From Membranipora membranacea (taxonomy: Eukaryota > Bryozoa > Gymnolaemata > Cheilostomatida > Membraniporidae): a stretch of DNA of 64,000 nt. Below, piece after piece: positions 83 through 61,929 of this stretch. Numbering within the stretch: position 1 is the first letter of the stretch; each line of letters opens with the position of its first letter. A model generated the notes under the pieces. That model was not told the origin of the DNA. It did no database searches and saw only the letters and a program-made list of their open reading frames with translations. Both the position numbers and the translations under genes were made by a program. The stretch is from NCBI GenBank assembly GCA_914767715.1, contig OU612075.1, positions 1,366,001 through 1,430,000 of the forward strand, in the 5' to 3' direction.

Positions 83-201
83 TCACGCGATAAGCTCAGA
101 CCAGCCTAGAAAAGAGTGTCCAGAAAAACAGTGGTGTAGGATATCTGATATATTATAAGGCAGGGAAAAATGACAGCTTTTAGGGTGAAACAAAGTTGAG
201 C
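83..201 (-). CDS. Putative terminal exon, 39-residue C-terminal tail
   Basis: The acceptor TTTCTTTTAG lies just before 201. The in-phase frame runs 39 codons (start GSTLFHPKSCHFSLPYN, end SELIA) to TGA at 85-83. The tail shares nothing with the Pro-rich tails of the two paralogous caspase copies. It could instead be untranslated or an alternative exon, because the true last exons may lie beyond the window edge. Confidence 0.4.
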
Positions 202-3200
202 CTAAAAGAAATGAGGTTGACTAGAGTCTTAGTGTTTGTCAGCACCACATTTGACCTGTAGCTTACCTGGTAACCATTCTAGAGTAGTATCTGTATTACC
301 ATCAGGATATCTGGGATCTGTCAGAGATTGTGGATGTTCTCCAGCCTCTCTCATATTAACTCCAGGTCTGAGGTATAACTTTCTCATATCAGTCAGCGTC
401 GATACAGTCTTTGGCATCTGAGGAACATTGTCAGTAACTGCTTCTCTTATCTGTGTAATATAGAGTGTGGTGTATTTATTAGTTTTTGTGGGCTCAATTC
501 AATTTACGGAATTGAGGAAAAATTATAAAAGACTGAAGTGATCGACTTTTACTGACCAAACAGGTCTTAAGAAGTGATCAGTCCAGTCTATAATCAGAGA
601 AGGGAGTGAAGAATACATGATGGACAGACTTCTAGAGACAACAGTAGATAAAATAGGTATTGTTTTTATTTCTGAGTGTGAAGGTATTTTATTGTGTCTC
701 TCAGCATGAGTCAGAGAGCAAGGAGGATTGCGGGCAGTAACAGGTAACAGTACAAAATTAATAGTATGAGTTATCCTCTTATGAAAGTGAGTACACAACT
801 CCAGAATGATCCTACAAAACTACAATATATTCAACAGGTATAGCAAAGGAACTGACAGACAACCTGTAATATTTATGTAGATTTAGGCATTCCTCATGTT
901 CTGTTTGTAGCCTTGTTAAGATGCAACAAAAGATGGCAATGTGACAAGGCTATTATACATTTGTTTCGTTATTACAAATAAGGCCAGTCTGTCTGAAACA
1001 AATTTATACATATCAAATGCGACTCCAAGCTTACAATCTAAGTAAAAGCACACTAGACATTAGTATTTTATTACACTTGCCACTCTGCCAACCTTCAGTA
1101 TCAGTATTTTAAATGACATGCAATTATTGTGCACCTAATATAATAATATGCTTACCATTTCGGCCAAGGTGGCGACATCATATTTTCCAGCAAACTTGTA
1201 GAATGTTACGACAAGAGCTCTGATGAAAGGTGATCCTGTAGCAGCTGATCTCAGGGAAGCAAAAGCTGGAAAAAAGAGGACTGAGATAAACGGCAAGCTA
1301 TTGTTATGGAAGCTTTTGTTTGTAACTTAAAGTCTGACACTATCTCTTGTGGATTGTCTTAAACTAAAAAACATATAGGATGAGCGAGACCAAAAAGATT
1401 ATTCAAGATTGTTAATTTCATTATCAGCGCCTTACAAGTCTCAAGTTTTCAGCTAGAGTGCTATGTTGCTACTAATAGGCTTATCAAAGATTCAGACTTA
1501 AATCAGCTATGGTTGGTCAGTCGCTCTAAAACAAGTCATTCGTAGGATATTTTACATAAATCGCTCGGAATGTCACAGGTCACAGTTTTTTTTACACTTA
1601 CTATCAAAGCTAGATTGCATGATGAGTAAATCAGCTATGGATATCTTTTTGTTGAGACTGTCTAACTGGAATAACTCATCTGTGACCTCACTTCCTCTCC
1701 GGCGCACTTCTACTATTCTAGGTTCTGATGTTGTGATTGGTTGAGGTGCTGCTGCATTCTCTGGACTCGGCAGAGATTGATTTGCGGAATCTAACAGCAT
1801 CTCTCTGCGCCCTGAAATGACAAACAAATTAAATATTATAACATCCCTACACAAATATATATACTATAACTTAATACTTATTACAATTCACAACACAGAA
1901 GAAAATGTGAAGGGACAGGAGTCGTCTGTTCAATCTGAGTGGCTTGATACTGAATTGTTGGGTTATGTGCAGCGAAATTTCCTGGAAAAGATATCTAAAT
2001 CATGTACCCACCTCCAGCACAGGCTTGTATTATAATGAGCTTTGGTTTTCCCTGCATGGCTGGGAAGTTACGAGGTGACAACAGGTTGTATATGTCTGTC
2101 AGTTTTACAAGTTTACCATCAACACCTGCTACACAGTTCTCAGCACCATGACTTGTGATCACCAGTACGAACACTCCAAGGTTCTTATATACAGATTCTC
2201 CTGTTTCATCCACTAGCTGGGTTTCCTTGTGGATAGCTTCTACCATCCCCTGAAATGATTTTTATAGACTAAGACATTATGTTCAGCATAACGCTAATAT
2301 CCAAAAGTAATATGGTGTCTGTAAGCTCTCAGAGTACAAAATCAGCTTCATTTGACTTTTAAATTAGTCTGCGTCCCCCCAGACTCTTGACCCTGTGCGC
2401 CCCCTCACTCATATAATATAAGGGATTACACATTTTAGCCATTTTTAGTATGTGAAGATCAGTAATGAGAAACTCTGTCAACTTTTGAGAGTAGATCTAC
2501 TATTTTTCCAATTCTAATTTCTACACTTCTGATTTTCTCATAAAGCATGGTAATCTACAATTTTTTTTATTTTGAACTCATGCCTACGTTTTTGTAATCA
2601 CTATACTAATTCAGTACCTTTACACAATCATACTTCATGCTTATTTGGCTCATGCGCTCCTCCCGGACCCTCCCCACACACTATGGGCCTGCGGCCGTCA
2701 ATAACCACCAAGCTATCTTGATCCCCGTAAAATCAACTTTATTTTCAACAGAGATATTTGGCAACTTTGACACTTTATCAGCAATGCTTTGTACTATGCT
2801 ACAAATGAGTTGCATTTTGCCATCGATATGATTGAATTGATATTTACCTTTGCTGTGTAGTTCTGATGACCACCTGCAACAACAAACCCGAGCTTCACCA
2901 TAAGAGCTCTCATATTTCTGTAGTCATGTTCTGAACCATTCCTGTATGAGCCGTCAGGTAGCTTGTACTCATTAGATATTAGGAGTGCTCTCCCTCGTGT
3001 CTCAGTCATTGTATACTGGAAGAAAAGGGCAACTATATAAGTATCAACAATATCAGTATTTTAGTTATATCTGACATCATATTATTGGGGCTGTGATATG
3101 TCAGCTGTAGTCATCAATTTCATCTACATCATTTTCATGATGATAAAGTAAAACAAATTAACAGAAGATAGTGTAACTCATAGAAAGGAATGTCTGCATG

Positions 3201-6200
3201 TAATTTTCCGCATCTTCCTAAGTTCAAAAAAATTATAATTATAATGATTTCATAAGAAAAAGACATAAAGATATACAGCTGGAGTCAGTGTAACCTGATT
3301 GGCTGAGAGTCCGACAGTATTTATCTGAGGGTCCTGAATTATAAAAGCTGGTTTCTCTCTCATCTCCTTCATTATCTCCTCAATCATTGCTCTGTCTACG
3401 GCTGCAGCTTCTAGAAGAGAGAAAAAAAAACAGATCACTTAGCGATCTGTTTAGTCTGATAGAGAAAATTAAGTGAATAACAAGCTTCTCCATTCCCAGA
3501 ATATCTAACACCTCACATGTCACCTGACACCATCATCACAAAGACTGTTTAAAAGCTTTAACCTACCATTAGGTACTGCTGGTACAGCTGGAAGACGGAT
3601 CAGGTAGTCTTTGATTTGACTCTTCTCTGCAGCTGTCAACTCAAAACCTGTCAAATGGGAGGAATTTATAATCATACAATGGCTCAGAGCATGACATGTA
3701 TACAGTAGATCCGGTAATTTGTCAATAATTCAATACTATTCATAAAGGCTACTCACACGGATATCTGAGTGGTGAGGGCACTGTGGGAGGTCTTCCCTCA
3801 GAGCTGTCGTTACCACATGGTACTGGATCGATTCCTGTGAAGTTATCCAACCGCTGGCTGAAGGGCTGGTCTGTCTCAGGATCCTCTGGTGGTCTGTACC
3901 AGTCAGGATCTCTCACCACGTCAGGTTCTAACTCTTCAGAGCGGAGGCAGTGAGCGCAGTAGAATGTACACACAGGATGAGCAGCTACCCAGACCGATTT
4001 CAATTTGTTGAGAATCGTTTCTAATACTTCAAAGACTCTCTTCCAGGCTGCATCAAGCTGTTCTACTGGTGTGTCAGTGTAGAGTAAGATCTCATGCCTG
4101 ATGTGATTGTGAAGGAGAGTTGTTACGTTCTGACCATGAGTAACAGATGATCCATTCTTTGCAGCTTTGATCTGATAACGATGATCAGTGAAAAGGTTCA
4201 AAAAGGAAACTACAAGCAGGTGGTAGACGTAAGATGGTGGAGGTAAACTGTCAAACCTCACAGCCATTTTTATTCTCAAAAGACCGGCAGAAGGAGAACG
4301 GAGCACGATGACATCTGGTGAGAGGTAGGGGATGATGTACTCCTTTCCATGATTTCTCTGGATGGGTCCACAAAGAAGATAGAAAGTTTTCAGAAGACAG
4401 ATGGCCCTGTCTTCAGGAAAACACAGACTCTCAAATAGACCTGTAAGCAGACGCTCGTCAAGGACACCACAACCCTTGAAGGTATCAACAAGCTCGCTGT
4501 ACTTCTCGGCAGTAACTCTACGCCTATCAAAGTAAAAGGGCCTGAAAGTAGCCACTCTTTTGTCCCACATTTCACCACGACGGTGATCAAACAGTGTAAG
4601 TATCACCTTTGTGATTTCGGAGATATTGTGGAAGACAACATCGCTCAGCATACTTTCGTTCTCAAACCACATCAACCTGCCTTCATTATGCATATATCTG
4701 ATTACAATCAGAGGGCCTTGTGCAGGAAAAGATTTCAATATATCCTCAACTTGAATGAAAGGCTCAAGCTGGTCATCGATAAAACGTGCTATTTTCTCCC
4801 AAATAAAGGGAATTTTGGTCGAGTGCCTGTTACATCTCAGAATCAATGCGTCGAGTAGAGAAAGGATATTGTCCACCTCATCCAAATTTTTGCCAAATTC
4901 AAATATGTCCTGCAGACTGAATATCTTCACACCTCTTGCTGAGAAGTGATCAATCGTTGTTATCATCTTTCTATCCTGTAACTTTTCCTTCCTTTGTTTT
5001 TCCTGCAGGATGACTGCCTCTTCTGCAAGCATCTCATTCCGAAGTTTCTCAACAGCATCAAGCAGCTCACCTCTCCTTTCATCAAAGAGTTCAGGAGACA
5101 GTTTGTCTTTATGAGTTAGGACGAGAAATGGAGGACCCAACTTGGGACAGGGCAGGTACAAATGAGCGAGATATTCAACACACAGCTGTTTAGTGGCCTC
5201 TTCAATGTTCTCTGACCTGACTAGCTGATCAAACTGCTCCATGTTTATAACCACAATCGGGATATAATTTGGCCTAATAAGCATCTGGTATGATATGCGA
5301 TAAACTTGGTCACCACCAAAGTCAAACATTCTCAGCATATTCTCACCCATGGATACCTCGTTGACTTCAAACACTCTTGTAGTCTCATCGTCCTCGGCAG
5401 ACTCATCTCTATGTGTGAGCTCTCGTGTCCGACTCTTCAGACTTCTTATCAGACTAGTTTTTCCTGCCATTCTGTTCCCGATGACTGCTGCAGAAATGAT
5501 CGGTCGCTTGACACCAGATCTCTCAGCTAGATCTGTGTAGTATTTCCTGATTGCAGCTAATCCTTGAACACAGACTGCATATGGAGGAGATTTGAGACCA
5601 CGAGAATCACTACAGTCCAGCTCTATCAGGTTTGGTAAGTCTATCACTGCTGGATGAAGCTCCTCTAGAGATCTTATGAAAGCCAGATTCAGATGTGTGA
5701 GAGACTTCAGTCTGGTCACCACAGCAGGCAGATATCTGAATTTGTTGTGGCTGAGATTTAACTTCTCTAGTCTGGTCAGACTATCCAGCCTATAGGAATT
5801 CGAATAGATGAAATGAAGGTGATGTCAATGAAGCAATTAGAGACAAACCAATAATATGTATACAATAATGTGGATGACACTAAAGTGGGGACTGACAGAC
5901 TTACACATTTGATGTACAAACCAAACGTTAAAATTGCTGACACAACCTAGCCTTGTCACGCCTTGTCATTTTTTTGGTTTTTTTGAGTGAAAAAACCAAA
6001 ACCCGTGGCAGCGTGACAAGACTAGACACAACCAACTACGATGGGCCATGTTTATTTTCTGCATTTAACACATGAACTGAATTTTAACTTTTCTAAATTG
6101 TATACCCTTTAAACCATCCACCAATATTTTTCAAAGTTATGATTTTGGCTTTTAAAATGATTTGATTTGAAGTTGTTGAACCTGAGATATAACTTCTCTA

Positions 6201-9200
6201 GTCGGGTCAGACTATCCAGCCTATAAGATTAATAATAGATGAAATGAAGGTGATGTCGATAAAGCAATAAGAGACAAAACAATAATCTGTATAATAATGT
6301 AGGTAACACTCAAGTGTGGACAGACAAACTTACACATTGGATGTAAATACCCAATGCTAAAATTTCAGACATAACTACCTATGATTGGCCATATTTTCTT
6401 TCTGCATTTAAACTTTTCTGGATGGTCTATCCTTCCAATTATCCACTAATATATTTCATACGCCATGAGACCTTTGATCAATATCTTTGTTGGGATTGCA
6501 GACACAGACTGCCAAATCTGTTAAAACTATGTTAACTGGTGGGGATCGTTTTATATGTTGTAATTTAGAATTAAAAGTTTTGATAATATTAAATTCCTTA
6601 AAAGATAGTTTGGTGATTTGTATCATAGCAGGATGCGCTTGAATTTCATCGTAAGTAAATTGTAGGATAAAGCTAAAGTGACCTGTCTTAAAAATTAAGT
6701 TGAATAGGGTTGTGTTAGGAGTTTTTTCCTCAGATTAACAGATGAGACCATGAATATGCAATTTATTATTTATGTTATCATCGGAGCACAGTGCACATTT
6801 TTGGCTGATGGCCAGGGAAATTAGGATAGAGTCTAAACGGAAAGATATTATATATGGATCTTATGCTCAACTACTTAATTGAACCAGAATTTAATTTAAT
6901 TTAAGTCGATAACCATTATATCATTTATAATGATAAGTATTATTAAAAGACAATCCAGCTTTGAATTTAGTACACATACTACATACATAGGTCATGCCTA
7001 AAATGATTTTTTGAAAGAAAAACTTTGCATTTTAATTTCATAATAATCCAAAACAATCCTCCATTTAAATCAATACACCTGGAATTTTTCTGTAAGGAAA
7101 ATTCCCCACATCCTCCTACACTGAGCTTCAAGGCGTTTGATGAGGTATTTATATTTTAACATATATTTTATATTTAATTTGAATCGTTATAGAAAAACAG
7201 AATTTCAAACACCTATTTCTAAAATAATACAGGGCAAATCTTTGGTTATCCTAAAATATTAGAAAAAACGTGGTAAGCTAACACTCCAGCAAAAATTGTA
7301 TTCTGCTCCTACAATGGTCAACATTAATTTTTGCAGGACTTTGATGTCATCTGATTATCAAGGGACATAACGTCAACAAACACAACAAGCTGAACTATAG
7401 GAAAGTTTACTATTGAAAAATAGGAATCAGGAGTGGTGTAAAGGTGAACATGTCTAACATGAAAATTAATCAAGATGTAAAATGTTCAAGTTTCCTGACA
7501 CATCTTATATCATAATTTCAATCATCAAATTACATTAAAAAATTAGAAACTTTAACTATACCCAATAAAATCATAATAGATGCCGTAGTTCAATGTTTTA
7601 TTGATTGTTGTATCTATCACAGGACCAGGTTGAGACTTCATTGGTCAACTTTTTTAGGACCAACAAATTTTCCTAATCTAATTTGAATGCCCCTGCAAAC
7701 CGCTGACAGTGTAGTGAACAATTTGTATCCCTTTCTGTCTGATATGAACATCATTACTATCAGAACTGATCCTAAAAGAGCCTCATGAGTCAAAAATTGA
7801 AGCTGACAAAATTTGAAGTTTTAAAATTGTTGATAATCTATTCCTCTGGAACCCGCCTATTCACTTATACAGCCTCACAAGTGAAAAATTGAACTTCAGA
7901 AAATAAGCGATGAGGGAAAAAGCATTCAAACTTATCTGAAGCTCTTATCTATTAAGATACACACACACCAGACTCACCTTTCATCTAATGATGATAGCTG
8001 ACAGCCAGACAGACTCAGCACTCTGAGGGAGGTAAGACTGTATATAACAGGAGGCAGACCACCCACTGAGAAGTCATTATCTCCTATATCCAGCACCTCC
8101 AGCTGGGTCAGCTTAGATAGTCTGTCAAATATGTACAAAATAATGTTATATGCAATCAAGACGTACAAGATGAAAGATTCCTGATTAAATTATATCCTAT
8201 AATATTAACACGCGTCACAAAATAGCATTATATCTTTACCAATTTAAATCATATATAAAATGGATACAATTTAAAAATTCAATCAGTGGTTATTTTAGCA
8301 CAGACCGAGATGAGGCTACACTGATTTTCTTGTCGCAAATAATTCAGCTAAAATAAACTGCTGTCAAATTGTACTAAATTGATACCTCCTTCTGTTTTAT
8401 GATAAATTTATACAAACAGAACTGACACTAGATGAGATTGGACAAGAGAGCTACTTTATTAGTCTAGTTCTGATCCATCATCCCCCCTCCCAAATTTTAC
8501 ATATATCTTAAGTATGCACAATTGGTGAGCACAAAAAAAGGAATGTGAAATAAATAATTTTGGTCAAGCTGATAGAATGTGAAGTTTTAAAGTTGTTGAT
8601 ATTTTGACTTTCCTGGAACCCAACTATTTTTCGTCACAGCTTATTTATATGATCCATCATCTTCCCAAATTTTAGCTTTACCAGAACACAAAATGGAATT
8701 TGTGATGACAAAAAAAGGAATCGGGAATAAATAAATTTGGTGAAACTGATAGAATGTGAAGTTTTGAAATTGTGGAAAATATATTCTTCTGGAACCCGCC
8801 TATCTTTTTATACAGCCTCGTGAGTCAAAAATTCAACTTCAGATAATCATGGAGGGAAAAAGCATTCAAACTTATCTGAAGCTCTTATCTATTGAGATAG
8901 ACACACACCAAACTCACCTGTCATCTAGAGATGATAGATTACAGCGAGACAGATACAGCACTCTGAGGGAGGTAAGACTGTATATAACAGGAGGCAGACC
9001 ACCCACTGAGAAGTCATTACGTCCTATATGCAGCTCCTCCAGCTGACTAAGCTCAGATAGTCTGTAAAATATGTACAAAATAATGTTATATGCAATCAAG
9101 ACGTAGGAGATGAAAGATTCCTGATTAAATTATATCCCATAAATTGACAAGCCTCACATTGTTTCAATCAAAAAATAGCAATATATTCTTACCCATTCAA

Positions 9201-12200
9201 ATCATATATAAAATGGATACAATTTAAAAATTCAATTAGTGGTTATTTTAGCACAGACCGAGATGAGGCTACACTGATTTTCTTGTCTCAAATAATTCAG
9301 CTAAAACAAACTGCTGTCAAATTGTACCAAATTGATACCTCCTTCTGTTTTATGATAAATTAATACAAACAGAACTGACACTAGATGAGATTGGACAAGA
9401 GAGCTACTTTATTAGTCTAGTTCTGATCCATCATCTTCCCAAATTTTAGCTTTTCCAGAATGCAAAATGGAATTTGTGATGACAAAAATAGGAATCGGGA
9501 TTAAATAAATTTGGTGAAGCTGATAGAATGTGAAGTTTAAAAATTGTGGATAATATATTCTTCTGGAACCCTCCTATCTTTTTATACAGCCGCGTGAGTC
9601 AAAAATTCAACTTCAGATAATCATGGAGGGAAAAAGCATTGAAACATGTCTGAAGCTCTTATCTATTGAGATACACACACCAGACTCACCTGTCATCTAG
9701 AGATGATAGATTACAGCGAGACAGATCCAGCACTCTGAGGGAGGTAAGACTGCATATAACAGAAGGCAGACCACCCACTGAGAAGTCATTATCTTCTATA
9801 AACAGCTTCTCCAGCTGACTAAGCTTAGACAGTCTGTCAAATATGTACAAAATAATGTTATATGTAATCAAGACGTACAAGATGAAAGATCCCTGATTAA
9901 ATTATATCCTATAATATTAACACGTGTCACAAAATAGCATTATATCTTTACCAATTTAAATCATATATAAAATGGATACAGCTTGAAAATTCAATTAGTG
10001 GTTATTTTAGCACAGACCGAGATGAGGCTACACTGATTTTCTTGTAGCAAATAATTCAGCTAAAATAAACTGCTGTCAAATTGTACCAAATTGATACCTC
10101 CTTCTGTTTTATGATAAATAAATACAAACAGAACTGACACTAGATGAGATCGGACAAAAGAGCTACTTTATTAGTCTAGTTCTGATCCATCATCCCCCCT
10201 CCCAAATTTTACATATATCTTAAGTATGCACAATTGGTGAGCACAAAAATAGGAATGTGGAATAAATAATTTTGGTCAAGCTGATAGAATGTGAAGTTTT
10301 AAAATTGTGGATAATATATTCTTCTGGAACCCTCCTATCTTTTTATACAGCCTCGTGAGTCAAAAATTCAACTTCAGATAATCATGGAGGGAAAAAGCAT
10401 TCATACTCATCTGTAGCTCTTATCTAATGAGATACACACACCAGACTCACCTGTCATCTAGTGATGATAGCTGACAGCCAGACAGATCCAGCACTCTGAG
10501 GGAGGTAAGACTGTATATAACAGAAGGCAGACCACCCACTGAGAAGTCATTATCTGTTATCGACAGCTCCTCCAGCTGACTCAGCTCAGAGAGTCTGTCA
10601 AATTAGTACAAAATAATATTATATGTAATCAATCAGTACAGGATACAAGATTTCAGATATTTCTCATAATGTATCATCAAATATCACATTATATTACACA
10701 GTTACTCCATCTAACTTAGTCTATCAAATATAATTTAGCCAGTAATTGATTTTTCTATGTCCCATTGCTATCATAATATACTAATCAAATAATTTGGACA
10801 TATTATGTCTAAATTATCTATATTTGATTATAAGAATATCATATATCATGTTATCTCTTTTACAGCTAGGTAATTTGAAAATAAAACTTTGTTGAAATGA
10901 ATTTGTATTTTGAAAAACACAAATTGTTGCATTCACAACTGATGAATGAATTAGAAATAATCATAACAATGATTACAATTTCCATCTAATTCTACTCACC
11001 CTGTAAGTGATCCACTGATATACCCCAGATAGAGATGTGTAAGATGAGGAGCTATAGACCTCAGACTATCAGGTACCTCACTGACTTCTATATACATGTG
11101 AGTTATAGAGTGAGATCCTGCTCTACTCTTTATCTCACTGATAGTCTGAGGTTTGTTAGTAACTGTGATCTCATCAGCCTCACCTCTACGTCTGATATAC
11201 AGATCACCAAACCTTAATAATCCTGCTCTCACACTCTCTACCTCTGCCTCTCCACTGTGTCTGTACCAGACATTATATTCTATAATATAATGATAATAAT
11301 CATAATATATAATCAGTGCTGTCATCCTAATAAGGTCTTGTTAATGTGTAATCTGGTATTTATCTGTTTATACTGATAATCATCTTGTCTCTCATCATAT
11401 GATATGATAATATGATTATGGGCTGATTAGCTATTAGCTTATTATGATGTAAGAGATCACAACACCAGAATAAATAAAAAACCCGCTCTACTGTATAGCC
11501 CCACAACTCCTGGTATGACCAATTGTTGTGGTGATGGTTTTATCAGGACGTTTGAAGGTAGTGGTTTTGAATAAATTATTGGCTTCTGTATAGAAATAAC
11601 TAACATACAATTTGACTGTCGGTTTTCTGTACTGAAAATATAATTGCGTGCAAATGACTAAATAATCTTGCGAGATGGGAGCATACCCTATTGATTTACA
11701 AGCTCAAGATTTGGAATCATCATAAATCGTCGAGAACGAAATGGAAATTTTAATTTCATCTGTCTACTTAGCTCCAAAGTGAGATCTGCCTTTGATTGCC
11801 CCAAACCTAGTGAGAGTCCCCTGAGTAAAGTACAGGGGGTCATAATAGTGAGGAGATTATTTTTGTCGTTATGAAGCTTGTATGAGCGGGGGAAACTAAG
11901 CTGGTATGGGCAGAGGGGGGATACTAAGCTGGTATGTGCGGGGGGATACTAAGCTGGTATGAGCAGGGGGGGGGGGTACTAAGCTGGTATGAGCGGGGGG
12001 GATACTAAGCTGGTATGAGCGGGGGGATACTAAGCTGGTATGAGCGGGGGGGATACTAAGCTGGCATGAGTGGGGGGATACTAAGCTGGTAAGAGCGGGG
12101 GGGGGGGATACTAAGCTGGTATGAGCGGGGGGATACTAAGCTGGTATTAGCAAAAAGTTTGTGGTTACTTACTCGGTTCCTCATCCCTGTCCTCACCATC

Positions 12201-12269
12201 ACTCTCACTCTTATTTTTTTTCTCACTTTTACTCTTCCTCTTGAAAAATCGTTTCACTGCACCGAGCAT
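83..12269 (-). CDS. LRR-Roc-COR-caspase fusion protein, 15-exon gene model (1416 aa)
   Basis: Exons, high to low coordinate: 12269-12173, 11318-11000, 10594-10451, 9833-9690, 9061-8918, 8121-7978, 5789-3757, 3647-3567, 3410-3295, 3015-2848, 2249-2012, 1811-1602, 1265-1156, 450-267, 201-83. Every junction is GT-AG, every phase matches, and the total of 4251 nt is 1416 codons plus TGA. Domains: basic then acidic N-terminus (1-32), unassigned region (33-138), LRRs (about 139-400), Roc GTPase (about 430-620), COR (about 640-910), linker (about 1009-1074), caspase p20 (1075-1210), linker (1211-1265), p10 (about 1266-1350), tail. Roco proteins are known GTPase scaffolds that normally carry kinase or death domains, so a caspase here would put proteolysis under GTPase/LRR control; that role is inference. 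Least certain are the first exon, the weak donor of exon 9 and the last exon. No transcript evidence is available. Confidence 0.8.
267..1811 (-). CDS. Caspase interdomain linker and p10 exons (1811-1602, 1265-1156, 450-267)
   Basis: Exon 12 is a Ser/Pro/Ala-rich linker with aspartates suited to self-cleavage (MLLDSANQ, QLDSLNKK), then the p10 start IADLLIMQSSFDS. Exon 13 has FASLRSAATGSPFIRALVV: SLR occupies the place of the caspase SWR motif, keeping the second S1 arginine, and GSPFIRAL matches the usual GSWFIQAL. Exon 14 has QMPKTVSTLTDMRKLYLRPG, matching the closing beta-strand segment of caspases. A 40-residue extension follows. The order and lengths fit a complete p10. Confidence 0.88.
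2012..3015 (-). CDS. Caspase p20 exons (3015-2848 and 2249-2012)
   Basis: Residues 1075-1210 form the large caspase subunit. The first exon has YTMTETRGRALLISN, the usual start of the fold, then RNGSEHD, where Arg corresponds to the first S1-pocket arginine. The second exon carries the catalytic His in ITSHGAENC (His1164) and the catalytic Cys in IIIQACAGG (Cys1207). The His-Cys spacing of 43 is close to that of animal caspases. QACAG replaces the common QACRG. The intact set indicates a working C14 cysteine protease rather than a pseudo-caspase. The intron between them (2847-2250) holds no recognised gene. Confidence 0.9.
3295..3647 (-). CDS. Two short linker exons between COR and caspase (3647-3567 and 3410-3295)
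   Basis: The exons encode about 66 residues: FELTAAEKSQIKDYLIRLPA, then a helical segment with MIEEIMKEMREKPAF, then INTVGLSANQ. This is the position of a caspase prodomain, but it is too short for a complete DED or CARD and shows no motif of either; it looks like a predicted helical linker. The phase runs 1 to 1 and then 1 to 0. The donor of the second exon (GTTACA) is weak, so its edge could shift. Confidence 0.65.
3757..5789 (-). CDS. Large exon: last LRRs, Roc GTPase and COR domain
   Basis: The 2033-nt exon encodes residues 331-1008. It starts with LRRs (LDSLTRLEKLNLSHNKFRYL and two more), then Roc: P-loop GNRMAGKT at 435-442, switch II DFGGDQ at 487-492, and THKD at 556-559 in the NKxD guanine-recognition position. 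A charged helical linker with a Glu/Lys-rich run follows, then COR (about 640-910). The end carries a CxxC (FYCAHC) like the Cys pair seen after COR in some Roco proteins, then an acidic/proline-rich tail. In the Roco family the Roc-COR tandem is a GTPase and dimerisation unit. All three GTP-binding motifs are intact, so nucleotide binding is predicted. Confidence 0.92.
5942..6033. repeat. Short hairpin element in the intron upstream of the Roc-COR exon
   Basis: An inverted repeat: CCTTGTCACGCC and a T-rich arm face an A-rich arm and GCGTGACAAG. It looks like a miniature foldback element. A related motif (CCTTG...CAAGG) occurs near 890-945 and in the receptor-like repeat units. Confidence 0.6.
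6180..6330 (-). pseudogene. Decayed duplicate of the start of the Roc-COR exon
   Basis: Minus-strand sequence from about 6226 reads LDSLTRLEKLYLRFNNF behind an acceptor-like TTATAG, matching the start of the exon at 5789 and its upstream intron (about 5741-5890). No donor or Roc sequence follows. It is a partial tandem copy of an LRR exon start, probably non-coding now. Confidence 0.6.
6330..7977. other. Long intron with no recognised gene
   Basis: This AT-rich intron lies between the Roc-COR exon and LRR exon 4. I see no open frame with splice signals and no clear repeat beyond the partial exon duplicate at its low-coordinate side. It could harbour transposon remnants that I cannot name. 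Confidence 0.6.
7978..8121 (-). CDS. LRR exon 4 of 4 (two leucine-rich repeats)
   Basis: This 144-nt phase 2-2 exon encodes LSKLTQLEVLDIGDNDFSVG and LTSLRVLSLSGCQLSSLDE. It is followed by a 2.2-kb intron before the Roc-COR exon, much longer than the introns between LRR exons. Its second repeat matches LRR exon 1 (GCQLSSLD) more than exons 2 and 3, suggesting that the inner two arose last. Confidence 0.85.
8918..9061 (-). CDS. LRR exon 3 of 4 (two leucine-rich repeats)
   Basis: This 144-nt phase 2-2 exon encodes LSELSQLEELHIGRNDFSVG and LTSLRVLYLSRCNLSSLDD. Acceptor TTTTACAG precedes 9061 and donor GTGAGT follows 8918. It differs from its neighbours at HIGR and YLSR, again on the variable face of the repeat. 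Confidence 0.85.
9690..9833 (-). CDS. LRR exon 2 of 4 (two leucine-rich repeats)
   Basis: This 144-nt phase 2-2 exon encodes two repeats (LSKLSQLEKLFIEDNDFSVG and LTSLRVLDLSRCNLSSLDD). Differences from the neighbouring LRR exons cluster at the solvent-facing positions after each LxL, for example FIED against SITD, as expected if the ligand surface varies. The flanking intron is close to identical to those around the adjacent LRR exons. Confidence 0.85.
10451..10594 (-). CDS. LRR exon 1 of 4 (two leucine-rich repeats)
   Basis: A 144-nt symmetric phase-2 exon encodes two repeats, one around LSELSQLEELSITDNDFSVG and one around LTSLRVLDLSGCQLSSLDD. The LxxLxxLxLxxN/C spacing fits cytosolic plant/Roco-type LRRs. 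Acceptor TTTGACAG precedes 10594 and donor GTGAGT follows 10451. Whole-codon length and equal phases mean one such exon can be added or lost without a frameshift, which fits the tandem duplication seen here. Confidence 0.85.
11000..11318 (-). CDS. Second exon: unassigned N-terminal region leading into the first LRR
   Basis: It encodes residues 33-138, beginning with a tyrosine-rich stretch and including GLLRFGDLYIRRRGEADEIT. The last part, LTHLYLGYISGSLTG, has LRR spacing and continues into the next exon. The donor is GTGAGT at 10999-10994, phase 2, the same phase used by all four LRR exons that follow. I recognise no domain before the LRR; the region is predicted cytosolic because no signal peptide or membrane segment is visible. 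Confidence 0.7.
11880..12152. repeat. G-rich minisatellite in intron 1
   Basis: About ten units of roughly 25-29 bases share GATACTAAGCTGGTATGAGC followed by a run of 5 to 12 G. The G-run varies in length between units. It lies in the first intron of the fusion gene, 20 bases from the exon 1 donor. The spaced G-runs on the plus strand could form quadruplex structures. Confidence 0.95.
12173..12269 (-). CDS. First exon of the LRR-Roc-COR-caspase gene
   Basis: ATG at 12269-12267 opens 32 codons beginning MLGAVKRFFKRKSKSEKK and ending in an acidic Ser/Glu/Asp run. The strong donor GTAAGT lies at 12172-12167. It leaves phase 1 and joins the acceptor CAG before 11318, which restores the LRR reading frame without a stop. 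The Lys/Arg cluster followed by an acidic stretch could be a membrane- or RNA-binding tail or a nuclear signal; no family is recognised. The alternative start is the ATG at 11325, inside what this model treats as intron; it would also encode the LRR frame and would remove this exon. Confidence 0.55.
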
Positions 12270-21117: not shown

Positions 21118-21180
21118 ATTGACAAGCCTTGTTTGTGGTAGAGGGAAGGGGTCTCATCTCCCACAAGGCTTGTCAGTATA
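21118..21180. repeat. Hairpin TGACAAGCCTTGT, present in every receptor-like unit
   Basis: TGACAAGCCTTGT faces ACAAGGCTTGTCA across about 35 bases. The same hairpin lies near 32342-32400, 45026-45084, 50332-50390 and 55945-56003, each next to the TCIVHCRY block. Confidence 0.8.
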
Positions 21181-21211
21181 TGTTGATAGCTGATATGTGA
21201 CAAGTGCTTAC

Positions 21212-21339
21212 AAACTTTTCTGTTGGCCTTAGTGAAGACCACAGCAGTCCTGGTACCATATTAACGATTTCTGTGTGATGTCCATATATGACAGCTTCAT
21301 CACTCAAGGTCATATATCTACAGTGTACTATACAGGTAT
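21212..21339 (-). CDS. Exon-like block containing TCIVHCRYMTLSDEAV
   Basis: A 128-nt block follows acceptor TTAATTTTAG and precedes donor GTAAGC. One frame is open: TCIVHCRYMTLSDEAVIYGH, then NMVPGLLWSSLRPTEKF. It is preserved at 32563-32436, about 45245-45118 and about 56166-56038 with mostly conservative changes, which suggests past coding selection. Family unknown. Confidence 0.45.
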
Positions 21340-22380
21340 CTAAAATTAAAGAAATAATGTGGTAATTAATGATAACAGTTGTGTAATTCTCAATATTACT
21401 ATACTCTACTATATATTGACTAGACATAAAGGATGTGGTCTTCATGTAGGCATGAACAGGCTTAGAGGGACATCAGTATATAAATAAGTAACGATGTATG
21501 GGATCTACACAACGAGTTCCTAGAACAGTTGGCATATCTTAACATGTAACTGATTTATTGAGCTCGGTCAGGTTGCCAGGCAACTCATGAAGTTTATAAC
21601 TTGTGTAAATCAGCCTTCAATAATATGGAGTTGTTATCTCTCTGAACTTCTACTGCAGAGAGTAAATAACTCCCATTTGTAGTAATATTGTGTAATAAGA
21701 TTAATATTCTATTAACAACCAAATTGCACCACATGTATACTACAAAGTATAACCAGTTATGATAGATTACCTTGTGACTCTCTGCTGATATTCTTATAAG
21801 CTCTCACACAGCCAGCTGTGTCTGGTGATTTGGATTTCATGAACTCCACACAAACTTCATCATCATTATACTATTAGCTGTAATATAAAGTGAAACATAT
21901 AAGCTCTGACATCAGAATTAATGACCGGGTTTTCATAATTTTTATGTGTATTTGCATTTCATATTGTTTATGAGAACAACTTGCTGTGTGTTGTAGTTGA
22001 CAGATTTAATGGTGTATGAGACGAGCCAAATCAAGTCATCCCATTCACCAGTAAATCAGTCAATAAACAATTAAAAATATAAGTAAAAGCACATGCTGAC
22101 AGAAGAAAATCACACAACGGCGAATGCCAGAGAACTCCAGATAAACATACAGCAAAAAAACTGACAACTTATCCTGTCAAGTATGACATCATTACTTAGA
22201 AGGTGAGGAAGTGCACACTATCCACATAAAATATATACTATAAGGATATTGTGCAAATCCAGTGATCCAAAGCTACTGTATATACACTCCTAGGGTTCGG
22301 TCAGTGAGGTGGCTAGCCTCAATACTGTGGGATTATCATCACATAGGATATATCTAAGACCAAGTTATATCTAGTCGTCC

Positions 22381-26606: not shown

Positions 26607-29124
26607 CTATAATGAAACCAAACAGATTATTTTGGAAAAAAAAGATTTCAACAGTACTTTGGCATTTCAAAGTGCAAACAACCAGCTTCTGTAAAACAAA
26701 AATGGAGCGGCGTATTCTTCCCACTTTCATGATTTTATTTAAGCCAAAATTATAATTTGGACTTTGGAGAGTGATGTAAAAGTCAAGATCACATTGTGTT
26801 GAGCTATTTTCAATTTGTAATCTTTAATAATTTTTACTTGGTAACCATTCTATAGTTGTGGTAGTATTACCATCAGGATATCTGGGATTTGTCAGAGATT
26901 GTGGATGTTCTCCAGCTCTTCTCATATTAACTCCAGGTCTGAGGTATAACTTTCTTAGGTCTGTGAGAGTAGATATCATCTTCGGCATCTGAGCTACGTA
27001 AGCTGCATTCAGACCAGGATTAGCTGCAAGGTAAGCCTGTGTTTGCTCTACTCCATATCTACTGACAGCCTCTCTTACCTTTGTGTAGAAAATGAAAATT
27101 ATACCAAAGACATCAATATGGAGATGGGCGCATATGCTAAACAACTCAAATATAACCATATCAAGTAGAGATCAATTTTTAGTTATATGTGTGTTTATCA
27201 TGATTTGGAATTTGAGGCAATATATCACATTTCTGGTGTGGATAGTGTTCTTGTAGCTGAGGGTGGTAGTTGGCCCTGACAGAATTAAGTTTTTTGTATT
27301 GCGGTGTCAACCTGTCATTCTAGTTCACACATCCTAGTTCGAATTATGGCCATATGCGGTAATACTCACTAGCTCCCCCAAAGTTACGACATCAAACTGT
27401 CCTGCAAACTTGTAGAGCGTTACGACCAGGGCTCTGATGAATGCCGATCCTGTTACAGCTGATCTAGGAGACACAAGCGCTACAAAACAATTATTTATTA
27501 TGAAACTAATCTGAGTACAATGGGCATTAAACCTGATATTATGACATCACAAAGATTGGGAGAGGGAAGTTGTAGAACAGATGACTATGAATAGTCGATT
27601 AAGTAAATGATGTTGGAAGACTCAAATTTGGACTCATATACTCTCGAATACCTTATTCATTAGTCATTTTTGTTAACAGCCAATGTATGAGAGGAACTTC
27701 CAAATATAAAACTTACTGTCAAAACTTGATTGCATAATTATCAGATCAGCCACTGATATTGTTTCATTGATACTGTCTACTTCAGGTAACAGCTGTATGA
27801 CATCACTTCCTGTCTGATACAGATCTCCTTCTCTAGGTGCTGATGATGTAACTTCTAGATCAGATGGAGGGGGGAGAGGTTCAGGTGCAGCTGCACTCAG
27901 CTCTGAGATTGAGGGAACTGAGTCTGTAGTATCTAACAACATCTCTCTGCTACCTGTAAGGACAATCACCAGAAACTGATACCAGAACACCGTAGTATTC
28001 ACACATCATATAGATAGACACATACACAGAGTATACTGGTGTTTTTAGTGGAAGTTGTATTGACCTACTAAATATGTATCAAATCAAATCTCATTGATTT
28101 GTACGGAGTTGCTTACACTCGACTGCACAGTTGTCAGACCTGGGAGAGCAACTCCAAATTAGAACTACGAGTTCAGACTTGATCGATATAGCAACATGGC
28201 AGAGTAGCATTGAGTAAATTTTACATATTTAATTGATCAATTTGCCTGTGTTTGGAGTTGCCCCTCCTCTACAGCTGCGTGACATGTAGAGAGGGGCACA
28301 GGCAAATGTATCAAACTTGATCTATACATTATTACCATCAACAATCACACTTACAACATGTTTAATATATATATATCCAATACCCTCAATGACCCATGTG
28401 TTGATGTTTGACAGCTTTCAAAATTGTGGAATATTTCAGATGCTGCTCATTACTTAACACGGAATAAACTTTACCTGGAGATCGTGGCCGGCTGCTCAAA
28501 CTAAAAGATAGGTTAATATTTCACTTACTTCCAGCACAAGCTTGTATTACGAGGAGTTTTGGTTTGCCCAGCATGGCTGGGAAATTTCTTGCAGAGACCA
28601 TCTTGCTGATGTCTGACAGCTTGACCAGTTTACCGTCCACACCTGCCACACAGCCTTCAGTGCCATGACTTGTAATCATCAGTACAAACACTCCGAGGTT
28701 CTTATAGACAGATTCTCCTGTTTCATCTACCAGTAGTGTCTCTCTGTGAATTGCCTCCACCATTTCCTGAAATATAAATCAAGTTGTGACATCAATAAGC
28801 TACACCTGCAAGGTTAACAACATTATCACAAAAAATGTGTGTACGTGACAAGAAAGAGTATTTTTAGTTACGGATAATGATTGCGTCTATAAGTAAGGTA
28901 AAGAAATAGATAAGTGAATGCAACTATATTTTACACTCATGTTAGATTGACACGATCAATACCTTTGCTGTGTAGTTCTGATGACCACCTACAACAACAA
29001 ACCCAAGCTTCACCAAAAGATCTCTCATATTTCTGTAGTCATGTTCTGAGCCTTTCCTGTATGAGCCGTTGGGCAGTTTGTACTCATTAGATATTAGGAG
29101 TGCTCTCCCTCGTGTCTCAGTCAT
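26419..29124 (-). CDS. Stand-alone caspase, paralogue copy 2 (six exons, 391 aa)
   Basis: Exons 29124-28963 (its exon opens at 29130), 28766-28529, 27953-27717, 27479-27370, 27078-26838, 26606-26419. All phases match the fusion gene and close at TGA 26421-26419. It has TETRGRALLISN, RKGSEHD, the catalytic His in ITSHGTEGC, the catalytic Cys in LVIQACAGS, VSPR for the second S1 arginine, and the p10 end QMPKMISTLTDLRKLYLRPG. No prodomain, LRR, Roc or COR exon is found upstream: homology to the fusion gene stops within the intron, near about 29350, and a TA-rich minisatellite follows. It is either a prodomain-less caspase starting at this Met, the 3' half of a gene whose upstream exons are in the receptor-like unit, or a 5'-truncated duplicate that is not expressed. 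Confidence 0.75.
28105..28308. repeat. Two GGAGTTGCTC-family hairpins between p20 and linker exons of caspase copy 2
   Basis: 28105-28156 (GGAGTTGCTT...GAGCAACTCC) and 28241-28308 (TTTGCCTGTG...CACAGGCAAA, with CCCCTCCTCTAC facing GTAGAGAGGGG) are inverted repeats. The second is cut by the deletion that removed the p20 exons in copy 3. Confidence 0.8.
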
Positions 29125-29387
29125 TGTATACTGGAAATAAAAGGCAAATATATAAGTACCAACACAATCTGTGTTTTGTTCCTACTCGACTTAATAAATA
29201 ATTGAGGCTGTGATAAATCAGCTGACATGACAAAGCTTATCTTTCTTGTAAAATGATATAAAAGAATTTCTGAATATTGTGTAATTGATAGGGAGGGAGA
29301 ACGTACGCATGTAATTTTAAGCACATGAGATTCACAGCATCTTGCAAAAGATATAATTATCACATTAAATAACACAATAAAAAGACA

Positions 29388-29685: not shown

Positions 29686-32600
29686 TATTGATGTTTAACC
29701 AATCTGCTGCCTGTTTCTTCGTACTTTGCGGCAGTTTAGACTGAATACTGGACAAATAATTATAAGAGGATTTAGTATCAGATGTACTAATAGAGTTATA
29801 TCAATGAGGCAGCGAACCCAGCATATCACTATGTTAATATGTGTTCACATTTAGAGTCAGACTCTGATCTTAACTAACACGAGTTCACATTGCTTGAACT
29901 TAAGTTGATAGTAGTAGTTTAGAGTCAGACTCCGTTGACATGGTGATATTCATACCACATCTGTCTTTAAACTCTGACTGCAACAGCAGAGCTGCATATA
30001 GTAAACTGATAGAAGACGTTCTCAAAGTCAGTCCGCGACTACGTCACTATATACTTGTATCAATAAGGGAGTATGTCTCAGATCTCATTGCGTAGATAGA
30101 CCTAGTAAAGTTAACAAAGATATATAACTCTTGTGATTGGTTCCAGGTAAATCTTACCCTTATCACGGCAGCCAATTTTTGGACCACAGTTATAAGGGGA
30201 AGTTCATCTTTTCATCAATTTTAAACTCCAGGCAGTTCACATATTTGCTCAGTCTATTTCCAGTAAGTTTTTGTCAAGACAGTCTCAAGGCAAATATGAC
30301 ATCATGCTGCAACATTGAGGGAAGAGTAATTAGGTGATACATCTCAGCCACGTGTCACAAACTGAAATCAAAACTCAAAATTTATTTTTGATGTTCAATT
30401 CATTTTTATTCTCAATGGGTGACCGCAGAAACCGAGACTAAGTGGTCTGCAATTCTGCCATTTTTTTATTCAATTTTCTAACAAAGGAATTCGCCGAGTA
30501 ATATAGGAGCTCTTGCTGAGATGCAGGAAAAACACCTAATTTTTCACCCAAATGCTCAACTCGAGCTAAAATACTACATGCATTTGAATACGACAGACCT
30601 GTGACTGTGTTATGTTATGACGTAATGACAGGACTACATACCTGGAGGTGTAGTGATATTTGTTCCGGTGACTTCTCTGTATTGTACTGTATACATACTG
30701 AAAGGAGTAAGCGGACACTGGAGCCGGTCTCCTGATTCCTAAAAAACTTCTCCAGTAAGCTTATAAGTCACTATCTACAGAATAAAGACCATATAAGTTA
30801 TCATAACTTTTACTAGCGCAAAGCTCAATAAGAGTTATGGTAGTTGTCACCCCTGTGAATTGGCCAGTATGCGTTGTGCTAAAGCCTGATATAACATGGA
30901 GCTACAGTGAGTATTAAAATATATTACTTTACAGCCTAGATCTAATCATTTTTGGACCACAGTTACAAGGGTAGATAAATATTCGTATGTTTTTCATGAA
31001 TTCTAAACTAAACTTTAGGCAGTTCATATATTCACTCCGTCTATTTCGAGTCTCAAGGCATATATGATTTCATGCTGCGACATCGAGGACGGTTGTTTTA
31101 ATGGTAGAAAATCACCTCATTTTACCATTTCTTTTACTGTCAGACCAGACCATGGGCTTGGTAATCAGGCAGGATATCTCAGCCATGTGTCAGATTGAAA
31201 TAAGGAACTATGTTATGATGTCATGTTTAAAGCATTTGTATACAGTGAGTGACCACAAAAACCGAGGTTTTATGGTCTGCAATTTGGCCAATTTTTATAC
31301 AATTCTCAAACTAAAATAATTGCCAAGTCATATAGGACCTCTTTATGAGATGCAGGAAAAACGCCTAATTTTTCACCCAAATGCTCAACTCGAGTTAAAT
31401 TGAATACGACAGACCTGTGACTGTGTTATGTTATGACGTAATGACAGGACTACATACCAGGAGGTGTAGTGATATTTCTTCCAGTGACTTCTCTGTATTG
31501 TACTGTATACATACTGACAGGAGTAAGCGGACACTGGAGCAGCTTCCCTGGTTTCTAACAGACTTCTCCAGTCAGCTTATATGTCACTACCTACAGGAAA
31601 TAAAACATATATATTATCATACCTTTCTACTACCCCTAAGTTAAATAAGAGTTATAGCAGTCGTCTCCCCTGTGAATTGGCCAGTATGCGTTGTGCTAAA
31701 ACCTGATATAACATGGAGCTACAGTGAGTATTAAAATATACTACTTTACAGCCTAGATCTAATTATTCACCTTCCACCAGCTGTATCAGTAGTTTATCAT
31801 ACGATACACATGAAACAAAGACAGACTTTGTCGGTGCTGAGTCTGGGTAATTCTGAGAGGTCAAGAGGTGATCCTACCAGGCTCTTTGATGTCCTTTCTT
31901 ATGAAGACAACTATTTACGTTTGAGAGGCACAGAGTCAAGAGTGACTCAGTAGAATAACCTAAGAGGGATTATACCTCACACTTACTGGTGAAGAACTCT
32001 GATATCAGGTGATCCAGCAGAGGCTAATATACATTCTCTCTGTGATATCCTTTCATCAGAATATCTTCTCTGTGTGTTGAGTCGACACAAATCCTAAGTA
32101 TAACTTGGCTCTCAATGTAGAATTATCACCATTTTATAAAATTCTCTGGTGGACTCCATCTGCAAATGCCAATGTCAATGATCAACGTGGAAAAAAACAA
32201 CCATTCAACTGTATCCCAAAGACTTGCTTTCAGCTTTTGTTCTTTCCCATCATCAGAAAATATCCACATTAACAATATCTATTGCGATTTTACATTAGGC
32301 AATTGTTTAAATAATTTATGTTTCAAAGTCACATAGCTTATATTGACAAGCCTTGTTTGTGGTAGAGGGAAGGGGTCTCATCTCTCACAAGGCTTGTCAG
32401 TATATGTTGATAGCTGATATGTGAAAAGTGCTTACAAACCTTTCTGTTGGCCTTAGTGAAGACCACAGCAGTCCTGGTACCATATTAACGATTTCTGTGT
32501 GATGTCCATATATGACAGCTTCATCACTCAAGGTCATATATCTACAGCAAACTATACAGGCATCTGAAATTAAAGAAATAATGTGGTAATTAATGATAAT

Positions 32601-33565
32601 AGTTGTGTAATTCTCAATATTACTATACTGTACTAAATATTGACTAGACATTAAGGATGTGGTCTTCATGTAGGTATGAACAGGCTTAGAGGGACATCAG
32701 TATATAAATAAGTAACAATGTATGGGATCTACACAACGAGTTCATAGAGCAATTGGCATATCTTAACATGTAACTGATTAATTGAGCTTGGTCAGGTTGC
32801 CAGACAACTCATGAAGTTTATAAATTGTGTAAATCAGCCTTCAATAATATGGAGTTGTTCTCTCCCTCTCTCTGAACTTCTACTTCAGAGAGTAAATAAC
32901 TCCCATTTGTAGTAATATTGTCTAATAAGATTTAATATTGTATTAACAACCAAACTGCACCACATTTATACTACTAAGTATAACCAGTTATGATAGATTA
33001 CCTTGTGACTCTGCTCATATTCTAATAAGCTCTGACACAGCTGTATCTGGTGATCTGGATTTCATAAACTCCACACAAACTTCATCATCAATCTATTAGC
33101 TGTAATATAAAGTGAAACATAAAAGCTCTGACATCAGAATTTCTGACTGGGTTTGCATATTTTTATGTTTCTGTGAACAATTTTCTGTGTGTTGTAGTTG
33201 ACGGATTTGATGATGTATGCAACGAGCCAAATCGAGTCTCATACATCATTAAATCAGTCAATTAACCATTAAAAAAATAAAAGTAAAGGCATGTGATCAC
33301 ACAACGTAGAATGTCAGAGAACTCCAGATTAACACCCAGCCAAAAAACTGACAACTTATCCTGTCAAGTATGATAGCATTACTAAGAAGGTGAGGAAGCT
33401 CTCACTATCTACATAACACATAGACTACAAGGATATTGTGCAAACCCAGTGATCCAAAGCTACTGTATATACACTCCTAGGGTTCAGTCAGTGAGGTAGC
33501 TATCCTCAATACTGTAAGTTTCTCATCACATAGGATATATCTAAGATCATGTCTGATCTAATTGT

Positions 33566-40705: not shown

Positions 40706-40965
40706 TCATGGAGCATGAGCAGCCAGTGTAGCTGGGGCAGCCGGAGTAGCTGGAGCAGCCGGAGTAACTGGAGCAGCCGGAGTAGCTGGAGCAGCCGGAG
40801 AAGCAGGAGTAGCCGGAGTAGCTTGAGCAGCCGGAGTAGTTGGAGTAGCTGGAGCAGCTGGAGCAGCTGGAGTAGCTGGCACTCTTCTCCTCTTCAGAAT
40901 ATTCCATCTGATATAAGTGTAAGTTCTAGATTGGGGATAATTCATGTCTTCGTCGGCCATACGAT
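40706..40965 (-). CDS. Terminal exon of caspase copy 3: Pro/Ala/Thr-rich tail
   Basis: It reads DRMADEDMNYPQSRTYTY, IRWNILKRRRV, then about 55 residues of imperfect PATPA pentamer-like repeats, ending LAAHAP before TGA. The DNA is a 15-base-type tandem repeat built on GCAGCCGGAGTAGCTGGA (plus strand). The plus-strand frame through it (Ser/Trp-rich) is judged a shadow. The YIRW segment ties it to the tail of copy 2. Confidence 0.65.
40722..40885. repeat. 15-bp tandem repeat encoding the PATPA tail
   Basis: About eleven imperfect copies of GAGCAGCCGGAGTAGCTG-type units; the length is a multiple of three throughout, so the minus-strand frame is maintained. Confidence 0.9.
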
Positions 40966-41259
40966 CTGTAATGTGACAATAACAGTAGCTAACTATGATA
41001 TATTAGTTTGGCTTCATTTTATTAAAATTAGAGTGAGTTATCCATATAACCTATAACAAATGTAATATTACTTTATCACTGCACTCAAAAATTCAAAAGT
41101 GTACATGTAGAGGGGGTAGGCTAGTTCTCGATGCAAAAAAATTGATCCAGATCTTGAAAAAATTCTACTTGAAATAATGAGCCACAAAACCTTTGAATGA
41201 ATTTTGTTAGATTACCTGACATAAGGTCTGATATCTAACCACAGCAAGCAGCTACTCAC

Positions 41260-41283
41260 CTTGACCCTGACTATCATCTGTAC
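41260..41283 (-). CDS. 24-nt in-frame microexon in caspase copy 3
   Basis: The acceptor ATTTAG and donor GTGAGT bracket 24 bases encoding roughly GTDDSQGQ. The phase (1 to 1) matches the preceding exon (ending LP) and the following tail exon. I found no equivalent in copies 1 and 2. Confidence 0.6.
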
Positions 41284-42744
41284 CTAAATATTTCAATGAA
41301 AGGACAGCAGTACGCTACTCACCTGGTAACCATTCTATAGTAGTATCAGTATTACCATCAGGATATCTGGGATCTGTCAGAGATTGTGGATGTTCTCCAG
41401 CTCTTCTCATATTAACTCCAGGTCTGAGGTATAACTTTCTCAGGTCCGTGAGAGTAGATATCATCTTCGGCATCTGAGCTATGTAAGCTGCATTCAGACC
41501 AGGATTAGCTGCCAGGAAAGCCTGTGTTTGCTCTACTCCGTATCTACTGACAGCCTCTCTTACCTTTGTGTAGAAAATAAGCATTATATATAAGACATCA
41601 ATATGTAGACGGGACCATACGCTATACAATTCAAATATAAGCATAATCAAGCCGAGATCAAGTGTTGATTTGGAATGTAAGGTCAAAACATCTCACATCT
41701 GGTGTGGATGGCGTTCTCGTAGCTGAGGGTTTTTGTTGACCCTGACAGAATGAAGTTTTATATGGCAAGGTTTGACTCTCATTCAAGTTCACACACCTGG
41801 TCCCTATTAAATTAATGCGTTATAATACTCACTAGCTCCCCCAAAGTTACGACATCGAACTGTCCTGCAAACTTGTAGAGCGTTACGACCAGTGCTCTGA
41901 TGAATGCCGATCCTGTTTCAGGTAATCTGGGAGACACAAATGCTACAAAACAAGTATTCATTATGATGTTAACCTGAGTACAATGGGCATTAAACCTGAT
42001 TTTATGACATCACATAGATTGGGAGAGGGAAGTTGTAGAACAGATGATTATAAATAGTTGATAAAGTAAATTATGTAGAAAAGGCTCGAATTTGGACTCA
42101 TATACTCTCGAATACCTTACTCCTTTGTAATTTTTGTTAACAGCCATTGTATGAGAGGAACTACCAAATATAAAACTTACTGTCAAAACTTGACTGCATA
42201 ATTATCAGATCAGCCACTGATATTGTCTCATTGATACTGTCTACTTCAGGTAACAGCTGTATGACATCACTTCCTGTCTGATACAGATCTCCTTCTCTAG
42301 GTGCTGATGATGTCACTACTAGATCAGATATAGGGGGGAGAGGTTCAGGTGCAGCTGCACTCAGCTCTGAGTTTGAGGGTGTTGAGTCTGTGTTATCTAA
42401 CAACATCTCTCTACTACCTGTAAGGACAATCACAAGTAACTGATACCAGAACACAGTAGTAAACATACATCATATAGAGAGCCACGTACACACAATAATC
42501 TGGTGATTTTGTTGTGTTGGCCTACTAATTATGTATCAGATCAGATCTCATTGATTTGTAAGGAGTTGCTACCACTTGACTGCACAGTTGTCAGACCTGG
42601 AAGAGCAACTCCAAATTAGAACTATGAGTCCAGACTTGATCGCTATATCAACACGGCAGAGCAGTATTGAGTAAATTTTACATATTATTAATAGATCAAG
42701 TTTGATCCATTTGACTGCGTTTGGAGTTGCCCCTCCTCTACTGC

Positions 42745-48250: not shown

Positions 48251-48324
48251 GTATGTCTCAGACGTCACTGTGCAGATAGACCTGGGAAAAGAAACACAGA
48301 TAGTTATAACTATTCTAATTGGTT

Positions 48325-53180: not shown

Positions 53181-53212
53181 AACACAGATAGTTATAACTA
53201 TTCTAATTGGTT

Positions 53213-61848: not shown

Positions 61849-61929
61849 TTTTTTTTTCAAATGGGTGCTTTATAACTGGAGCATTTTTACTTTTCCCAAG
61901 GTGGGTGTCTTATAGGTGAGGAAATACGG

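Follow-up and report, generated by a model that had tools for sequence, protein, structure and literature searches.

A Predicted LRR-Roc-COR-Caspase Protein and Its Expanded Gene Family in the Bryozoan Membranipora membranacea

Introduction

A minus-strand gene of the bryozoan Membranipora membranacea is predicted to encode, on one chain, a leucine-rich repeat (LRR) sensor, a Roc-COR GTPase and a caspase whose catalytic residues are all in place, a combination supported by domain, homologue and fold comparisons. The gene lies in 64,000 nucleotides of contig OU612075.1 (GenBank assembly GCA_914767715.1, positions 1,366,001 to 1,430,000), here called the window, in whose coordinates all positions are given. 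In well-studied animal systems, the sensor and the caspase are separate proteins linked by death-fold adaptors. We consider it probable, at about 0.72, that the gene encodes a one-chain receptor-protease in which LRRs sense, Roc-COR switches and the caspase is activated in cis. Since three modules appear to stand in one protein and dozens of such genes stand in the genome, a self-contained immune or cell-death receptor is suggested. The fusion, noticed in a preliminary description of this DNA, is real: Roc-COR and caspase are supported as one gene, not chance neighbours, by collinear Watersipora proteins, by their pairing across the genome and by an exon that joins them at two other loci (L022 and L026). 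Judged by its sequence, the protein represents an animal version, new and expanded, of the LRR-Roc-COR-caspase design published for bacteria.

Domain Architecture of the Predicted Protein

The LRR sensor, Roc-COR switch and complete caspase that had been read from the letters alone are borne out in a 1364-residue model. The Roc domain carries the P-loop GNRMAGKT, DFGG and THKD, and its score of 26.7–27.9 bits lies at the Pfam threshold (cut-off 27). COR follows directly; Pfam alone being too weak for COR in this protein, the assignment uses homologues and a fold comparison instead, in which Roc-COR resembles LRRK2. After COR comes a Peptidase_C14 match (3e-29) with both the p20 His/Cys dyad and the p10 pocket residues. 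The His, Cys, Gln and Arg positions aligned with CED-3 are kept, the catalytic motif is QACAG where QACRG is expected, and the closest of the solved structures are the animal caspases CED-3, caspase-2 and caspase-9. The linker between p20 and p10 contains Asp and is of low confidence (low predicted local distance difference test score, pLDDT) in the model of P0022, a public transcript-like protein (jgi). Pfam matched no CARD, DED or Death, no kinase and no NACHT or NB-ARC domain in the 1364-residue model, and no CARD or DED prodomain in P0001, P0002, P0004, P0022 or P0026, which are described below. The protein is thus neither of the LRRK/DAPK Roco type, which has a kinase, nor of the MFHAS1 type, which has nothing C-terminal of COR, nor an initiator caspase with a CARD or DED prodomain, and its NTPase is Roc.

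All exons lie on the minus strand. The gene start at 12269 is a prediction: exon 1 (12173–12269), with a predicted ATG and a charged N-terminus, fits the phase of exon 2 and has homologous DNA in a second copy of the gene, where the surrounding DNA is also kept. Exon 2 (11000–11279; VWYRHSGEAEV...), the N-terminal stretch preceding the LRRs, falls inside the collinear alignment to Watersipora P0002, and a local piece of it is 40% identical to P0002 47–109. Exons 3 to 6 (10451–10594, 9690–9833, 8918–9061 and 7978–8121) are LRR cassettes of 144 nt each, identified by Pfam, by alignment to P0002 and by comparison of the cassettes. Exon 7 (3757–5789) holds the last LRRs, the Roc GTPase and COR, as assigned by Pfam and fold comparison; exon 8 (3567–3647) is a C-terminal extension of COR (FELTAAEKSQIKDYL), recognised by its likeness to Watersipora linkers, and exon 9 (3295–3410) is a pre-caspase linker. 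Pfam and alignments place the p20 start (RGRALLISN...RNGSEHD) in exon 10 (2848–3015), the catalytic SHG and QACAG of p20 in exon 11 (2012–2249) and p10 in exon 13 (1156–1265; SLRSAATGSPFIRAL), while the interdomain linker and p10 start of exon 12 (1602–1811) follow from alignment to P0002 and the low pLDDT of the linker in P0022. Exon 14 (267–450), the p10 C-terminus, splices to a final exon that lies beyond the left edge of the window, as judged from P0022 and the flanking DNA. A fifteenth exon at 83–105 (minus strand), proposed earlier as the gene end, was rejected, because P0022 continues after ...EWLP in another exon whose equivalent was found in the left flank, at about -117 to -311 (read by eye).

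The Linker between Roc-COR and the Caspase

The phase between exon 8 and the caspase exons is restored only through exon 9, and the gap between exons 8 and 9 is just 156 bp. At L022 and L026, the COR extension and the pre-caspase linker form a single exon of 170 nt, which is joined to the Roc-COR exon without a stop and from which a phase-matched acceptor leads into the p20 exon, these splice sites being set by rule rather than seen in transcripts. The second half of this exon at L022 resembles exon 9 of L021, L027 and L028 (0/5000 shuffles each) and of L030 (17/5000), and exon 9 of L030 and L029 in turn resembles that of the window (3/5000 and 2/5000). Exon 9 is 94–97% identical at the DNA level in L014–L016, against 55–60% in the flank before it and 75–77% in the flank after it; exon 8 is 70–74% identical there. 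Gene conversion of the whole stretch was considered as a cause of this identity; the flanks are less alike, but the codon changes in exon 9 bear no mark of purifying selection. Exon 8 alone also resembles Watersipora linkers, 0–4 of 2000 shuffles reaching its score.

A Tandemly Expanded Family

Across 339 Mb in 18 contigs, 66 Roc-COR exons were scored among 269 candidates; they lie on seven contigs, and 65 are free of internal stops. In 46 of the 66, a same-strand caspase match follows no more than 2,233 bp downstream, a lower bound because the window gene and the L026 gene sit among the 20 without a match; within 12 kb, none of the 66 has a caspase match upstream on its own strand or at all on the opposite one. 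The genome holds 145 caspase-domain matches (counted exon-wise, a lower bound), a very large caspase expansion, and 47 of these are preceded, at a distance of no more than 5 kb, by a scored Roc-COR exon. When 10 kb of upstream DNA was examined at 20 caspase loci, a non-random sample (drawn solely from C11, C9 and C10 and covering 20 of the 80 stretches planned, with L017 and L018 overlapping), 15 had a same-strand Roc-COR exon upstream, in 13 cases 0.7–1.9 kb from the p20 exon, and five had none. The family is a large, tandemly expanded one, with at least 46 Roc-COR exons that have a caspase behind them.

A second copy with all domains lies to the right of the window (81073–68804 in window coordinates) and is 97.2% identical over 5712 aligned bases; exons 7–14 show no gap in 3140 nt, while 40 gap columns accompany the 2529 positions aligned in introns. 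Nearly half of the amino-acid differences between the two copies (16 of 33) fall in residues 329–408, the LRR end and the stretch just after it. Among the four LRR cassettes, 11 of 17 amino-acid changes fall on the presumed ligand face (10 of 47 codons), which 61 of 100,000 permutations reach; summed over the six pairs, which are not independent, the face has 42.9 non-synonymous and 2.1 synonymous changes against 25 and 19 elsewhere, with face positions taken from the general LRR pattern. Divergence of the cassettes thus appears to be concentrated on the presumed ligand face, in the manner of immune receptors.

A partial copy at 26824–29130 (minus strand) consists of caspase exons only, in open frame, and no Roc-COR was found upstream of it within the window. 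Its caspase is 75% identical to the fused one, its last exon is likely 26607–26422 (minus strand), and its likeness to the fused gene starts inside intron 9, as expected for a 5'-truncated duplicate. Between the two p20 domains, 40 of 61 differences are at third positions, with 32 synonymous and 20 non-synonymous codons among 135. Sequence comparison identified a second partial duplicate, in which the p20 exons are missing, at 42423–41324 (minus strand); its region (40709–42423, minus strand) has a proline/alanine-rich last exon.

Relatives in Other Animals and in Bacteria

A first protein search, with caspase and linker words and 7990 scored candidates, gave three matches at E <= 1e-3, all with Roc and caspase: two from Watersipora and one from Owenia. 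P0002 of Watersipora subatra is collinear with the window protein over 36–1337 (34.5% identity), as is P0001 over 1056 columns (33%), Roc being below the Pfam cut-off in both. The second search (18 matches at E <= 1e-8) added P0004, also of Watersipora, which matches caspase and, at 26.2 bits and so under the cut-off, Roc; it also returned Watersipora P0009 and P0011, which have LRR-Roc-COR without a caspase. P0001, P0002 and P0004 share the domain order of the window protein and differ in LRR number and linker; they are uncharacterised database entries, of which two carry MFHAS1-like or homolog in their names. P0003 of the annelid Owenia fusiformis has Roc, COR-A and then a canonical caspase, as in the window gene, but no LRR match. 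In a long-branched caspase tree of 26 rows, on which no relation across phyla is claimed, the window caspase, the 29-kb copy, P0022, P0026 and P0027 group with Watersipora and Bugula caspases (99/97), and the fusion from Owenia sits among caspases of Owenia and Lingula (96/93), because of which it is probably a separate one. The fused label requires four changes on this tree, no fewer than by chance (133/500 shuffles as low). Roc-COR-caspase fusions have thus probably arisen at least twice in animals, or have been partly lost. When the Roc-COR alignment was used to scan bacterial contigs, in one pattern-based pass, and viral contigs, no relative was confirmed.

According to the portions of Kaur et al. 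2021 (PMC8195603) considered here, prokaryotic LRR-AP-GTPase (Roc)-COR conflict proteins carry at least 24 C-terminal effectors, including caspase. Their domain order, rapidly evolving N-terminal LRRs, then Roc-COR and a C-terminal caspase, is matched by the window protein, and in both cases there are many paralogues per genome; the window gene differs in being intron-rich and animal, with a caspase that best matches animal caspases in a comparison that held no bacterial ones. In the relevant part of PMC5094078, sea anemones have LRR-Roc-COR-TIR proteins, of which NG1 resembles the window gene in joining, within an animal, LRR-Roc-COR to an immune effector in cis, with TIR in place of caspase. 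Human MFHAS1 and LRRK2 share the LRR-Roc-COR core, and LRRK2 also the fold; in PMC6337361, MFHAS1 ends at COR and LRRK2 carries a kinase, Roco proteins form three groups, none with a caspase, and the word caspase is absent from the main text. Excerpts of two further papers describe exon-by-exon LRR shuffling in brown-algal ROCO genes (PMC11378527) and a sponge NLR figure whose abbreviations include caspase and COR (PMC12909245). The earlier statement that no described animal Roco-caspase was known agrees with searches of an open-licence library, which showed none, subscription papers falling outside their scope, but the architecture is not unique, given the three Watersipora proteins and the Owenia protein in databases, the bacterial proteins and the anemone TIR form.

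One Gene, Two Genes or Mixed Output

Several observations weigh against a one-chain receptor-protease. A transcript running from Roc-COR into the caspase was not seen, nor was a full-length mRNA; P0022 and P0025 (jgi) begin with the exon 10 Met of MTETRG, and P0026, mapped to L030, starts within the intron before exon 9. Exon 9 alone (872–1595/2000 shuffles) and exons 8 and 9 together (60–328/2000) show no significant likeness to Watersipora linkers, the exon-9 part at L022 is unlike the window exon 9 (4585/5000 shuffles as high), and the exon 9 codon changes in L014–L016 (3 synonymous, 10 non-synonymous) show no purifying bias. Between the two full copies, divergence is about equal in exon 7 and introns (97.7% and 97.5% identity), with 19 synonymous and 33 non-synonymous codons in exons 7–14. 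No caspase match lies within 5 kb of 20 of the 66 Roc-COR exons, at least two of which, the window's own and that of L026, are false negatives. That the protein switches with GTP, acts as a protease and brings about cell death is likewise a prediction.

One alternative is a travelling pair of separately transcribed genes, one for LRR-Roc-COR and, 0.7–2.2 kb downstream, one for a caspase that is translated from MTETRG or exon 9. Such a pair would account for the starts of P0022, P0025 and P0026 (the last between exons 8 and 9), for the copies near 29 and 41 kb that hold caspase exons only, for Watersipora P0009 and P0011, and for the stop that unspliced exon 8 reaches after 15 codons; it is at odds with the open linker exon of L022 and L026, in frame on both sides, with the prediction of each of three Watersipora paralogues as a single protein, and with the short gap and restored phase at exon 9, and we regard it as unlikely. 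The preliminary description had taken transcripts starting at the caspase exons as a sign of two adjacent genes, and on this count its one-gene claim does not come through cleanly, since three public, transcript-like proteins, P0022, P0025 and P0026, begin where the caspase begins or shortly ahead of it. Alternative starts, broken or partial contigs and retained introns all fit these starts. P0026 was dropped as evidence for a fused transcript, its first part being intron sequence upstream of exon 9; it supports only the in-frame join of exon 9 to the caspase.

Caspase-only transcripts are possible, and a mixed output, compatible with the one-chain receptor-protease, has a real if less than even chance: a full-length receptor-caspase beside a caspase-only isoform, made by an internal promoter or splicing, that would act as amplifier or regulator. 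It would reconcile collinear proteins with transcript-like ones starting near exons 9 and 10, although broken contigs or retained introns could also explain the short proteins. The least probable alternative, and a quite improbable one, is a caspase domain that is a pseudo-protease, whether dead or regulatory: QACAG in place of QACRG and the lack of p20 in the 41-kb copy would fit, but the His, Cys, Gln and CED-3-aligned Arg positions are kept and third-position bias separates the p20 copies. Caspase-9 itself has QACGG.

Other Features of the Window

An open reading frame at 61876–62532 (plus strand) matches reverse transcriptase (RVT_1, 4.7e-25). Two near-identical plus-strand frames of 160 residues (48319–48798 and 53207–53686) look retrotransposon-like by eye, with no Pfam match at E <= 0.001. 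The window partly consists of repeated segments, a 99-residue frame recurring in four similar minus-strand copies (21176–21472, 32400–32696, 45082–45378 and 56003–56299). Intron 6 contains a truncated copy of the exon 7 start (6166–6219, minus strand) and intron 1 a short tandem repeat (ATACCAGCTTAGTATCCCCC; 11899–12135, by eye). An Rfam search of the window gave no match.

Proposed Mechanism and Implications

As a one-chain receptor-protease, the protein would bind a microbial or damage ligand with its LRR face, and binding would shift Roc-COR, whose fold and motifs are those of the GTP-regulated dimerisation switch of LRRK2 and bacterial Roco proteins. The switch would bring together two in-cis caspase domains, which, once dimerised, would self-cleave within the disordered, Asp-bearing linker that separates p20 from p10 and then cleave substrates after Asp, so that the cell would be killed or inflammation started; neither a death-fold prodomain nor an adaptor would be required. 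The preliminary description also had the protein replace an apoptosome-like assembly, which is an inference. LRR recognition leading through Roc-COR switching to caspase dimerisation and self-cleavage is the simplest reading of the architecture. By a slight balance of probability, we favour a wider view, in which dozens of tandem, fast-diversifying, adaptor-free sensor-switch-executioner genes form an NLR-like arm of immunity or allorecognition; this arm would correspond in animals, where it would have arisen at least twice, to the LRR-Roc-COR-effector defence of bacteria.

The architecture mirrors a published bacterial defence design. If the proposed mechanism is true, these proteins would be among the simplest animal cell-death receptors known, carrying their own caspase behind a GTPase; they would tie the biology of Roco proteins such as LRRK2 and MFHAS1 to a direct protease output, and would offer a readout for how the nucleotide state of Roc-COR drives dimerisation.
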